DNA from: Patescibacteria group bacterium
Lineage (GTDB): Bacteria > Patescibacteriota > WWE3 > JAMCXX01
DNA: 57,185 nt
Direction of reading: 5' to 3'
Assembly (NCBI GenBank): GCA_023474425.1
Contig: JAMCXX010000004.1
Span: forward strand, 1-57,185
The position numbers were made by a program, and so were the translations under genes. This document shows, one piece after another, positions 2,805 to 57,185 of the stretch. Position 1 is the first letter of the stretch, and each line of letters begins with the position of its first letter. The notes beneath the pieces are model-generated. The model made no database searches and was not told where the DNA came from. It worked only from the letters and a program-made list of their open reading frames with translations.

Positions 2805-3033
2805 TGGCGTGCCAGTTTTCAACTGGCACGAAATTTGGAAGCGAAAAAGGAAAGGTTCAAAAACCCGCCCGCATTCCTCCCCAGACCCCTCCTGCGGGCG
2901 GGAAGGAAGCCGAGGCGGGGCAATTCCATTCCCCCAGAAAAATAGTTTGCCCCGCCGAGTCCGCATTGTTTCCATTTCATTCATTGGGATTTTCCGCAAA
3001 ATGGGTTCTGACTTTTTCAAACAAACACCACCA
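2805..3033 (+). repeat. 229-bp structured repeat, right copy
   Basis: Hairpin CGTGCCAGTT TTC AACTGGCACG (2808-2830), then stems CCCGCCCGCA/TGCGGGCGGG (2864-2873/2893-2902) and GGCGGGGCAA/TTGCCCCGCC (2914-2923/2947-2956). Confidence 0.95.
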
Positions 3034-12518: not shown

Positions 12519-12534
12519 GTTTTACTTAATGTTA

Positions 12535-12633
12535 GGGCGCAGTGTTGGTTTTGCAGCGAGCGTTGAGGGGGAGCCGTCAGTCCGCAGACTGAGGGAGGAC
12601 TCCTTGAGCGAGTCGCAAAACTGACACGAGCCC
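12535..12633. repeat. 99-bp multi-helix element, copy A (intergenic)
   Basis: GGGC..GTGTTGGTTTTGC AGCGAGCGTTGAGGGGGAG CCGTCAGTC cgca GACTGAGGG AGGACTCCTTGAGCGAGTC GCAAAACTGACAC..GCCC. Confidence 0.9.
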
Positions 12634-12637
12634 GACT

Positions 12638-13540
12638 TTACATTGATCTAAGTATCTTTATTCTCTCCTCCAGCGGCGGGTGAGTGTCAAAAAGCCCGGC
12701 AAACCATCCGCTCAAATTCTTGCCCTTAAAGGGATTAACAATGTAGAGGTGGGCCGTGGCTTTGTTGGCCACGGAAAGCGGGCGGCTGTCACCTTTAAGC
12801 TTTTCTAATGCCGAGGCTAAACCTTCGGGAAACCTGGTTACCAAAACCCCGTCGGCGTCGGCCAAAAGCTCCCTTTTGCGGGAAACGGCCAACTGGATTA
12901 GTGTAGCAAAAAGCGGTGAAAGCAGGGCTAAAACCACGGCAATTAAAAAGATGACTGCGCCCGCCTGACCCTCCTCGCGGTCATCGCGCCTTCGACCGCC
13001 CCACCAAAGCGACTGCAGAAACCAATCCGAAAGCAGAGTAATCATACCCGCTAACACCGCCACCAAAGCCATATACCGTACATCGTAATTTTTAATGTGG
13101 GAAAGCTCGTGCGCCGTTACACCCTCAAGTTCAACCCGATCTAGCCTTTCCACAATACCCGAAGTGTAGCAAACCACGGCGTGCTGCGGGTCGCGGCCGG
13201 TAGCAAAGGCATTCATAGCCGGGTCGTTAATCATAAAAACACGGGGCTTGGGCAGACCGGCGCCAATGGCTACCGCCTCCACCAAATTATGTAAAGTGGG
13301 ATTCTCCAGTGGCAAAACCTCCCGCGCGCCCGACACTGCCAGCACAATCTTATCGCTGTAATAAAAGCTTCCCAGCGAGGCCAAAACCGAGAAAACAAAG
13401 GCAAAGATTATTAAACCCTGGCCGTAGCCGAAAACATAACCAAAAACGTAACCCAAAGCGGTAATCAAAAAAATAAAAACTGCTACGAGCAAAATACTTT
13501 TCCGCTTATTTTCGGCAATTTCTCTATAAATTGTTGGCAT
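12638..13540 (-). CDS. htpX: M48 family zinc metalloprotease, HtpX-like
   Basis: ELEGVTAHELSHIKNYDVRYMALVAVLAG...HPPLEERI; start taken as MPTIYREIAENKRKS. Confidence 0.92.
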   Translation of the reverse strand: MPTIYREIAENKRKSILLVAVFIFLITALGYVFGYVFGYGQGLIIFAFVFSVLASLGSFYYSDKIVLAVSGAREVLPLENPTLHNLVEAVAIGAGLPKPRVFMINDPAMNAFATGRDPQHAVVCYTSGIVERLDRVELEGVTAHELSHIKNYDVRYMALVAVLAGMITLLSDWFLQSLWWGGRRRDDREEGQAGAVIFLIAVVLALLSPLFATLIQLAVSRKRELLADADGVLVTRFPEGLASALEKLKGDSRPLSVANKATAHLYIVNPFKGKNLSGWFAGLFDTHPPLEERIKILRSM

Positions 13541-13599
13541 ACTTAAATTGAATTTCCACCACGAACACCACCCACAAATTATCACGAAACCTGAAGTCT

Positions 13600-17707: not shown

Positions 17708-17933
17708 AACTCGGGATACCTAGATGGTCTTTGAGCATCTGAAGTTGTAAAATCAAATCGGCTGTAATGTAATGGCGGAGACCAATTTTAACAGCAGTAA
17801 TAAGCGGGATGTGGGGGTCGAGTAGATACTGTTTGATATACTCGCCCTGGCTAAATAGGTCCGAGCCAATTACGTTATCCGGCTCCATATGAGAACGGTT
17901 TTGGCGCGGTTCAAAATCTCCCCTTAAAATCAA
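17673..17933 (-). CDS. Hypothetical 86-aa protein (paralogue of degenerate copy at 19107-19355)
   Basis: DLFSQGEYIKQYLLDPHIPLITAVKIGLRHYITADLILQLQMLKDHLG. Confidence 0.6.
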   Translation of the reverse strand: MILRGDFEPRQNRSHMEPDNVIGSDLFSQGEYIKQYLLDPHIPLITAVKIGLRHYITADLILQLQMLKDHLGIPSFKDLRLYNPRL

Positions 17934-19106: not shown

Positions 19107-19355
19107 TTACCACTTTTTGCCGTCTTTTCTATATTTGCCGAAAACTTCAAAAAATAGAAATGGGTTAACTTTCTCCAAGTAGCCTTTAAAAACAGTAAGT
19201 TGTAAAATCAACTCAGACTGATCTGTAATGTAATATCGAAGACCGATTTTAATTTTAGAGATTAGAGATAAATCGGGATCGAGTAGATACTGTTTGATAT
19301 ACTCGTCCTGGCTAAATAGGTTTGAGCTGAGTACCGTCCCAAGCTCTAATTGAAT
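19107..19355 (-). pseudogene. Degenerate copy of the 86-aa hypothetical protein (no ATG)
   Basis: Reverse-strand IQLELGTVLSSNLFSQDEYIKQYLLDPDLSLISKIKIGLRYYITDQSELILQLTVFKGYLEKVNPF; in-frame TAA shortly upstream and no ATG. Confidence 0.6.
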
Positions 19356-37375: not shown

Positions 37376-37621
37376 ATGTACGAAGATATTAACGAGCCCA
37401 TAGAAGTTGCCACACATTTCAAGGGTGGTCGGGCAAGTCCTCTTGCCTTCCGCTGGCAGCACCTATTCTTTAAGGTCAGCCGAGTCAACCTTTATCATAA
37501 ATTCCGCATCGGCCGGGATGTTATTCACGCTTACTCGGTTTCCACTGACCAAGGAGGAACGTTCAAGATTTCTTTTGATCCTAATCTGCTCACATGGCGA
37601 CTGAACCAAATTTACAACTGA
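37376..37621 (+). CDS. DUF6504-like small protein preceding dinB
   Basis: NEPIEVATHFKGGRASPLAFRWQHLFFKVSRV...; overlaps dinB ORF start. Confidence 0.65.
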   Translation: MYEDINEPIEVATHFKGGRASPLAFRWQHLFFKVSRVNLYHKFRIGRDVIHAYSVSTDQGGTFKISFDPNLLTWRLNQIYN

Positions 37622-38928
37622 AGTCCCACGAATTTAATTGTTCCCCTTCAAACGTCATGCACATTGATTTGAATAGCTGCTTTGCTTCAATAGAGCAGCA
37701 GGCCAATCCAACGCTTCGCGGCATTCCTACCGTCGTGGCCGCCTACCCCACCGGCGGTGGCTGTGTGCTGGCGGCCAGCATTGAAGCCAAAAAACTGGGT
37801 ATAAAAACAGGCTGGCGTGTCAGGGACGCACAAAAAGTCTGCCCGCAAGTAGCCGTTCTTATCCCAGACCCGGCCAAATACCGCCACGTCCACAAAGAAA
37901 TGATGAAAATATTCGAAGCCTACTGCGGCAATGTTACCCCCAAAAGCATTGACGAGGCTGTTCTCACATTTGGAAAGCCCGAGCGGAGGGCATGGTTTGC
38001 AGCGAACGTTGAGGGGGAGCCGTCAGTATTCGGTCTGACGGAGGACTCCTTGAGTGAGTCGCAAACTATGCCCGAGCTCGGAAACATAGGAAAACAAATC
38101 AAAAAAGACATTAAGGAAAAAATTGGGGAATGGCTTACTGTTAGCATCGGCATAGGACCAAACAGGTTTATGGCCAAAACGGCCGCCGGACTTCAAAAAC
38201 CCGACGGTCTCGAAGAAATAAACTTTATGAACGTGGATAGAATATTTAGCGGCCTGAAGGTTGAGGACCTTTGTGGCATTAATGTTGCCCTTAAGTCCCG
38301 CCTCAATGCTGCCGGAATTTATTCGGCTTTAGAATTCCTCAACGCTAACCGCTACACGCTAAACGCTGTTTTTCGCTCCATCTCTTCCTACCACTGGTAC
38401 ATGCGTTTAAGAGGGTTCGAAGTTGACAACTGGTCTACGGAGAGAAAAAGCATTGGGCATTCCTATGCTTTGCCCAAAGCCACAAACGACGAAAGAGAGC
38501 TCGGTAAAATACTTTTTAGGCTTTGCGAAAAGGTCGGTCTGCGCTTACGCAATAATAACCTGGAAGCCCAAGGAGTTTACCTTTTCTGCTCCTACAAGGG
38601 TAGAACCTGTTTTCACAAAAGTCATAAACTTCACCAGAAGATATTTACCACCCCGGAAATCTACCAACAGGGTTTGCGGATTTTGAGCGAGAGTCTCAAG
38701 ATGGTTAACTCTATTGGAACCCTCGCCGTCGGGGTTTTTGACCTATCTCAATCCCTATACCAACAACAAACCTTCTTCGAAGACCAAGACAAAAAAAGGC
38801 ACCTAGCCCAAACGCTAGACAAGATTAATAACAAGTACGGTAATTTTTCTGTGTCTTTCGGCACCACTTTTGGCCTGTCCAAGAAAATCCTGGACCGCAT
38901 TGCCTTCGGCGGAATTAGAGATATGTAA
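37594..38928 (+). CDS. dinB: Y-family DNA polymerase IV with in-frame repeat-derived insertion
   Basis: MHIDLNSCFASIEQQANPTLRGIPTVVA...SIDEAVLTF...WLTVSIGIGPNRFMAKTAAGLQKPDGL. Confidence 0.94.
   Translation: MATEPNLQLKSHEFNCSPSNVMHIDLNSCFASIEQQANPTLRGIPTVVAAYPTGGGCVLAASIEAKKLGIKTGWRVRDAQKVCPQVAVLIPDPAKYRHVHKEMMKIFEAYCGNVTPKSIDEAVLTFGKPERRAWFAANVEGEPSVFGLTEDSLSESQTMPELGNIGKQIKKDIKEKIGEWLTVSIGIGPNRFMAKTAAGLQKPDGLEEINFMNVDRIFSGLKVEDLCGINVALKSRLNAAGIYSALEFLNANRYTLNAVFRSISSYHWYMRLRGFEVDNWSTERKSIGHSYALPKATNDERELGKILFRLCEKVGLRLRNNNLEAQGVYLFCSYKGRTCFHKSHKLHQKIFTTPEIYQQGLRILSESLKMVNSIGTLAVGVFDLSQSLYQQQTFFEDQDKKRHLAQTLDKINNKYGNFSVSFGTTFGLSKKILDRIAFGGIRDM
37981..38079. repeat. 99-bp multi-helix element, copy B, inside dinB CDS
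   Basis: GAGC..GGGCATGGTTTGC AGCGAACGTTGAGGGGGAG CCGTCAG tattcggt CTGACGG AGGACTCCTTGAGTGAGTC GCAAACTATGCCC..GCTC; translated WFAANVEGEPSVFGLTEDSLSESQTMPEL. Confidence 0.93.
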
Positions 38929-54791: not shown

Positions 54792-55859
54792 TTAAATCCC
54801 CTTACCGGCCCGAAGGTAGGCGGGGATGTCGAAGCGGTCGCCAGAAGCGGAATCGGGAAATGTTTCCGGAACACTCTCATCTTTAATGCGGCCGGTTTGA
54901 CGACGTCGGGAGTCAAAGCCGGTGGCCACCACCGTAATCTTAATACTGTCCGAAAGCGACTCGTCAATGGCCGCGCCAAAAATAATATTGGCTTCGCTAT
55001 CCGCCGCGTCGCTGACCACTCTGGCCGCTTCGTCCACCTCGTTCATGGTCAAATCTTTGCCGCCGGTCACATTAAAAAGAATCCCTTTGGCGCCGTCAAT
55101 AGTAACTTCCAAAAGCGGAGAAGAAATAGCCTGCTTGGCCGCGACCAGTGCCCGGTCCTCCCCCGAAGCCGTCCCCACACCCATTAGGGCCGAACCGGCA
55201 TCGGTCATAATCGTTTTAACATCGGCAAAATCAACGTTCACCAAACCGGGCAAAATAATTAAATCAGAAATCCCCTGCACTCCTTGGGATAAAACTGAAT
55301 CGGCCAGATCGAAGGCCTCTAAAATCGTCATCTTTTTGTCCACAATTTCCAGTAACCTTTGGTTGGGAATAGTAATGAGAGCATCCACCTCGCCGCGCAG
55401 GGCTTCGGCTCCGTCCTGCGCCACCAGGGAGCGCTTGTTGCCTTCAAACGAGAAAGGTTTGGTGACCACGCCAATGGTCAGGGCGCCCAGGCTCTTGGCG
55501 ATTTTAGCCACAATGGGGCTTGCGCCGGTGCCTGTGCCGCCGCCAAGTCCGGCCGTCAAAAAAACCATATCCGAGCCGGCCACGGCCGCCTTTATTTTTT
55601 CCGCCGACTCCTCGGCCGCCTTGCGTCCGATTTCGGGATTGGCGCCGCTGCCCAAACCCTTAGTTAAATCCTCTCCAATTTGAACTTTGGTCGGACAGGC
55701 TGAATTGTCCAACGCCTGTTTATCGGTATTAATTCCCACAAAATCCACTCCTGAAATTACGTTGCGGGCTACCATGGAGGAAACGGCGTTGCAGCCGCCG
55801 CCGCCAATCCCCACCACCTTGATCCGGGCAAATTTTTCCACTTCCGGTTTAATCAGCAT
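54792..55859 (-). CDS. ftsZ: Cell division protein FtsZ
   Basis: [18 protein letters not shown]...[37 protein letters not shown]. Confidence 0.97.
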
Positions 55860-55929
55860 ATTAGTTGAACCAATACCACACACTTAACTGCCAACTGACA
55901 GGTTTCCTACATAGACTACCACAGATAAA

Positions 55930-56028
55930 GGCGAGAGGTAAGGCTCACAGCGAGCGTTGAGGAGGTACCGTCAAATCTACGACTTTGACGGGGGACACCT
56001 TGAGCGAGTCGTGAGACTTACCCGAGCC
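55930..56028. repeat. 99-bp multi-helix element, copy C (intergenic ftsA-ftsZ)
   Basis: GGC..GGTAAGGCTCAC AGCGAGCGTTGAGGAGGTA CCGTCAAA tctacgac TTTGACGG GGGACACCTTGAGCGAGTC GTGAGACTTACC..GCC. Confidence 0.92.
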
Positions 56029-56051
56029 TAACTCACAAATTAATAATAGAT

Positions 56052-57185
56052 TTAGGGCAGGAAAGATTTAAACCAACCTAGGGCGCGGCTAAAAGGACTG
56101 GCCAAACCTCCGCGACCCAAAAAACCAAAGGAGCTCACAGGCTGAGCCTTAGAACCATAGATAACTAAACCCACCGAACCGCTGTAGGCCGGGCCCACAA
56201 TTTCGTCAATTAAACCGGTTACGCCGGTTGGAGCCCCGAGTCTGACCGGCATTTTTAAAACCGACCGGGCTACCTCCGCCGCCCCCCGGGTTTCACTACC
56301 GCCGCCGGTCAAAACTAAACCGCCGGCCACCTTGCCCAAAAGTCCGCTTTTCTTTACTTCGGCTCCCACCAAACTAAAAATTTCCGAAAGACGCACACGG
56401 ACAATTTCCTCTAAATTTTTACGGGAAACCGATTCCGTGGCCCCATCGGCTCCCAAACCGGGTATCGTTATCTCTTCGCCGTTTTCCTCACGAGACATCT
56501 GCGAAAGTTTTATCTTTGCTTTCTCGGCCGTCTCGATAGATGTTCTTAAACCAATGGCCAAATCATTAGTAATATTTTGGCCGCCGATGGGCAATACCGA
56601 GCTATAATAAGGACTACCACCTTCAAAAATGCAGATTTTGGTGGTACCGGCGCCCACATCCACCAAAACCGTGCCCAATTCCTTTTCCGTATCGGTTAAA
56701 ACACTTTGGGAGGCGGCGATACCAGAAAACACCAGGTCGCTCACATCTACTCCTACCTGGGCGACGCATTTGGTAAGATTGCGCAAAGAAGTGGCTGAAC
56801 CGTAAATAATGTTGGTTTCCACCTCCAAGCGGATGCCGCTCATGCCTACCGGATTTTTAACGCCCTCCTGGCTGTCAACAATAAAATCTCGGGGAATCAC
56901 ATGAATTATTTCCTGTGAGGTGGGAATGGAAATAGCCTGGGCGGCCTCGGTGGCCCGGGCTACGTCCTCCTCGCTGATTTCCCCATCGGAACTGGAAACA
57001 GCCACCACCCCCTTGGAATTAAGCGAGCTTATGTGTGAACCGTCCACACCAATAAAAGCACTGGTTACCGCATAGCCGGCCATGCGTTCGCTGGCCTCGA
57101 GGCTTTGGGAAATGGCCGCCACGGCCTGGTCAATGTCAACCACAACTCCTTTTTTTATTCCCTTGGAAGGGGTGGAAGAAACGCC
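56052..57185 (-). CDS. ftsA: Cell division protein FtsA, N-terminus beyond window edge
   Basis: Frame open to the edge: GVSSTPSKGIKKGVVVDIDQAVAAISQSLEASERMAG...VLVDVGAGTTKICIFEGG...GGLVLTGGGSETRG. Confidence 0.95.
   Translation of the reverse strand, partial: GVSSTPSKGIKKGVVVDIDQAVAAISQSLEASERMAGYAVTSAFIGVDGSHISSLNSKGVVAVSSSDGEISEEDVARATEAAQAISIPTSQEIIHVIPRDFIVDSQEGVKNPVGMSGIRLEVETNIIYGSATSLRNLTKCVAQVGVDVSDLVFSGIAASQSVLTDTEKELGTVLVDVGAGTTKICIFEGGSPYYSSVLPIGGQNITNDLAIGLRTSIETAEKAKIKLSQMSREENGEEITIPGLGADGATESVSRKNLEEIVRVRLSEIFSLVGAEVKKSGLLGKVAGGLVLTGGGSETRGAAEVARSVLKMPVRLGAPTGVTGLIDEIVGPAYSGSVGLVIYGSKAQPVSSFGFLGRGGLASPFSRALGWFKSFLP

Follow-up and report, generated by a model that had tools for sequence, protein, structure and literature searches.

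The window, by which we mean the whole 57,185-nucleotide stretch of patescibacterial DNA analysed here, carries on its plus strand a 444-aa DNA polymerase IV gene, dinB (37594-38928), whose product matches the Pfam families IMS (2.2e-34) and IMS_C (5.1e-13). The reading frame runs through all 444 codons without frameshift or stop and matches DNA polymerase IV from end to end, with the SIDEA motif and the C-terminal domain intact. The NCBIfam models for DNA polymerase IV align to the protein in two stretches that flank an insert, with scores below their curated cut-offs. At the insert lies copy B (37980-38083, plus strand), an imperfectly palindromic element roughly 104 nt long. A preliminary description had placed a 99-bp repeat at 37981-38079; both its location in dinB and its repetitive nature were confirmed, but the unit is longer than proposed. 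The divisibility of 99 by three, offered there in support of in-frame insertion, carries no weight, since that boundary is arbitrary and the unit ranges from 83 to 113 nt between copies.

A family of six palindromes

Searching the genome (681,323 bases in five contigs, 84% complete) with the copy B segment recovered copy A at 89% identity over 70 nt (E 2.7e-20) and a third match at E 3.6e-6. A first covariance model, built on four copies, recovered six in the genome, whereas two had initially been recognised. Three lie on the plus strand of the window, namely copies A (12534-12637; R1 108.0 bits), B (R1 108.6 bits) and C (55928-56033; R1 106.7 bits). The other three, also located by covariance model, are found on other contigs: D (C2:10850-10954), E (C3:13273-13385) and F (C2:265372-265454), the last having lost its apex. 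A second model built on all six copies detected no further members in the genome at E values up to 10. Copy B is the only one within a gene. Compared by eye across the six copies, the ends of the element read approximately GCGAGGGT...ACCCGAGC. The right end ACCCGAGC is found again in C and F and partly in B and E, and on this ground we dropped the idea that the outer arm was copied from the target at insertion.

Copy B folds into a single long hairpin (-63.2 kcal/mol, z -7.3 versus shuffles), and copies A (-57.2 kcal/mol, z -6.6) and C (-44.9 kcal/mol, z -4.2) are likewise stable. Over the six copies 93.3% of cells are paired, compared with 76.9% in shuffles, and double changes occur at 15 pairs (32 cells), a level reached by none of 500 shuffles; both counts are biased in favour of the structure, to which the alignment had been fitted. 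The shuffles do not keep the relatedness of the copies. A second control, in which the pairing partners were slid against each other, does keep it, and led to the same outcome by abolishing the covariation signal. The outer arms (with flanks) are only about 45% identical among the five fuller copies, with 79 of 85 cells paired, and their hairpin structure has been kept by compensatory changes.

Identity between copies is 88% in the core. This part carries a tandem G-A mismatch that is kept in all full copies, and G-U accounts for 15 of its 55 paired cells, at the same three pairs in every full copy. Arm-to-arm correction is an unlikely source of the covariation, because these core G-U pairs and the G-A mismatch have stayed uncorrected. 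Through the fixed G-U pairs the plus strand folds better than its complement in every copy, which suggests that recognition acts on the plus strand, by sequence in the core and by structure in the arms.

The reading frame of the element is not conserved between copies. It had been proposed that copy A holds open the same frame as copy B, yet the equivalent frame of copy A ends at a TGA within the element, and copy C contains stops in all six frames. Since 14 of the 36 element frames (six copies) are free of stops, an open frame says little by itself, so that of copy B is attributable to the easy availability of open frames and to selection after insertion, and not to a coding element.

Genomic settings and distribution

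Copy A occupies the whole gap between two minus-strand genes and follows immediately on the stop codon of an M48 peptidase gene (12638-13585), and copy C lies between ftsA (56052-57143) and ftsZ (54792-55883), both on the minus strand. Outside the window, D is bordered by genes for a histidine kinase and an HlyD-type protein, E by dnaX/recR, and F by divergent genes for a tyrosine recombinase and a DivIC-type protein (all identified with Pfam). Four of the five intergenic copies (A, C, D and E) lie about 0-30 nt past a stop codon. No target-site duplication was consistent in position over the six copies. The left flank of copy C (55872-55928, plus strand) is shared with copy E (77% over query positions 5-59, E 5.9e-6), and these roughly 50 nt could represent either a favoured target site or another repeat; they occur once more, without the hairpin element, at C3:53290-53335 (L112), upstream of a YebC-like gene.

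Two other repeats were observed in the window. Perfect 206-nt inverted repeats (436-641 and 2828-3033), 2186 nt apart at the very start of the contig (C4), enclose genes of the glyoxalase and HhH-GPD families together with a helix-turn-helix-like reading frame, and the segment between them is possibly a composite mobile segment. Direct repeats of 131 nt with 75% identity (17762-17892 and 19223-19353) lie near peptidase S51 and GrpB-family genes.

Covariance model searches of 45 further class genomes, of 380 further phylum genomes under stricter filters and of 32 close relatives under looser ones found no member of the family; these relatives were sampled at the level of class and phylum, none coming from the host's own genus or family. 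Phage and plasmid collections likewise gave no match to the element. An exact pattern scan of named genomes returned 68 matches scattered over unrelated phyla, which we ascribe to chance (best model score 19.4 bits, E 0.066). A search of the open-access literature, incomplete in its coverage, yielded no report of such elements in candidate phyla.

The placement after stop codons raises the question of whether the family is a functional RNA that spreads, such as a 3'-UTR hairpin acting as an mRNA stabiliser or as a site for RNase III or a binding protein, and whether the dinB copy was selected for regulating dinB, beyond being tolerated. Structure preserved by compensatory changes would be expected of such an RNA, and the better folding of the plus strand, with core G-U pairs fixed in the full copies, points in the same direction. 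Orientation with respect to transcription is mixed, however, with B and D in sense, A, C and E in antisense and F between divergent genes, and REP elements also typically sit after stop codons (PMC3733652). We therefore regard a functional RNA as improbable.

The lengthened loop of DinB

Loop length was measured from the motif SIDE-x-x-L/I/V to the next helix in the 26 relatives in which the region could be aligned. The loop after the SIDE strand comprises 38 residues in the present DinB versus 12 in 24 of the 26 relatives, the other two having 14 and 31, as anticipated by the suggestion that DinB proteins normally have a short loop there. The gain is private to this DinB and preserves the frame, and the DinB matches in relatives of the class are mostly split in two pieces at the insert site. 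Copy B had been described as a 33-codon insertion that is read through; the open frame stands, while the net gain amounts to 26 codons (78 nt). Because this is less than the element itself (~95-104 nt, 32-35 codons), part of the 12-codon host loop was probably lost or overwritten, unless the element ends are slightly misplaced. The loop tolerates changes in length, since the DinB of one relative (L009, in genome G014) carries an unrelated 19-aa extension there, whose DNA forms no more than a modest hairpin.

The predicted inserted segment is AWFAANVEGEPSVFGLTEDSLSESQ, and a single-sequence AlphaFold prediction of the protein gave a pLDDT of 30. Judging from the intact reading frame, copy B appears to be translated in DinB as about 26 extra amino acids, and we infer that the lengthened protein is a functional polymerase. 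It could instead be supposed that dinB is decaying and that the insertion merely marks a gene no longer needed: DinB was not found in 19 of the 56 genomes searched and may be dispensable in the group, and the insert falls directly past the catalytic strand. A frame undisturbed over its full length, with the key motif and C-terminal domain retained, makes this very unlikely. Still harder to credit is that the insert is removed from the message like an intron, or skipped by the ribosome, so that DinB is made without the segment: the hairpin is very stable (~-63 kcal/mol) and closes on itself within the gene, but the segment is stop-free and frame-preserving, rendering removal needless, there is no other intragenic copy whose frame is broken and would call for it, and Rfam covariance models at gathering scores identified only tRNAs in the window, with no intron or ribozyme family.

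Relation to known palindromic systems and proposed origin

Rickettsia palindromic elements (RPEs) are palindromes of ~105-150 bp that form a long stem-loop, some lying in frame within conserved protein genes and others between genes (PMC2229807, PMC10969869). A guanylate kinase that contains an RPE keeps its activity with changed affinity (PMC2229807). The present family resembles them in its ~104-nt palindrome and long hairpin, within the ~100-150 bp that characterises RPEs, and in the in-frame insertion of copy B, and copy B only, into a protein gene whose relatives lack it. The families differ in host, in the share of intragenic copies (one of six here, compared with 19 insertions reported to lie inside Rickettsia genes) and in that no conserved peptide recurs in frame in several genes here, the frame varying between copies. 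In Wolbachia, WPE-like palindromic sequences occur in frame in addA, addB and priA, genes of repair and recombination (PMC4224334); an in-frame palindrome in a repair gene is the shared feature, and the host is again different.

REP palindromes are mostly found 3' of genes, and intragenic REPs are reported often to lie in replication or repair genes, including that for the error-prone DnaE2 (PMC3733652). The positions after stop codons and the intragenic copy in a repair gene are similar here, whereas REPs are 20-40 bp long and tagged GTAG or CGTC at one end, the GTAG families being accompanied by a RAYT transposase; our element is ~104 nt long, and no Y1 transposase (PF01797) was matched in its own genome, which is 84% complete. 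MITEs such as Correia/NEMIS and ERIC are small non-autonomous repeats with long stem-loops that in some cases form in-frame fusions with ORFs (PMC2229807). By contrast, the outer arms of the present element vary, and it has no fixed terminal inverted repeat, no consistent target-site duplication and no 5'-TA-3' ends. Inspection of the outer ends of the six copies revealed neither of the integron attC outer core sites (RYYYAAC and GTTRRRY). The analogy with Rickettsia palindromic elements drawn in the preliminary description agrees with all the evidence, and the element may work like those of Rickettsia and Wolbachia; the possibility that all DinB orthologues carry the segment is ruled out. Since its intragenic insertion neither recurs nor brings a conserved peptide, we do not claim membership among RPEs. 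The dinB insert also fits the pattern of RPEs, WPEs and intragenic REPs in repair genes, a single copy proving no preference.

Taken together, we consider it likely that a structured palindrome, mobile now or in the past, inserted into a loop of dinB that tolerates changes in length, and that it is read through in translation. We infer mobility from six dispersed copies that stand in both orientations relative to their neighbours and have no counterparts in relatives; weighing on the other side are the lack of a consistent duplication, the failure to find a Y1 enzyme and a net gain smaller than the element. In the proposed history, small non-autonomous palindromic elements would have spread in the lineage of this genome, and one would have entered the palm-domain loop of DinB just past the catalytic SIDEA strand with the frame kept. 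It would then be translated as an extension of the loop, tolerated as the loop accepts changes in length. Movement may have depended on an enzyme recognising the strand in its folded form. A strand-specific hairpin of this kind, whose core (tandem G-A mismatch and fixed G-U pairs) is read as sequence and whose arms are read as structure alone, is a tentative and rather doubtful proposal.

If such structure-based recognition were true, the arms could diverge freely by compensatory change, and the elements of this lineage could enter conserved genes and add segments to their proteins. Protein-coding palindromes have been reported mainly from Rickettsia and Wolbachia. Here a separate family occurs in another genome of very small size, and once more in a gene for DNA repair. 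This suggests a more general route by which selfish hairpins become segments of proteins, and the covarying arms provide a structure-based signature with which more such elements may be found.
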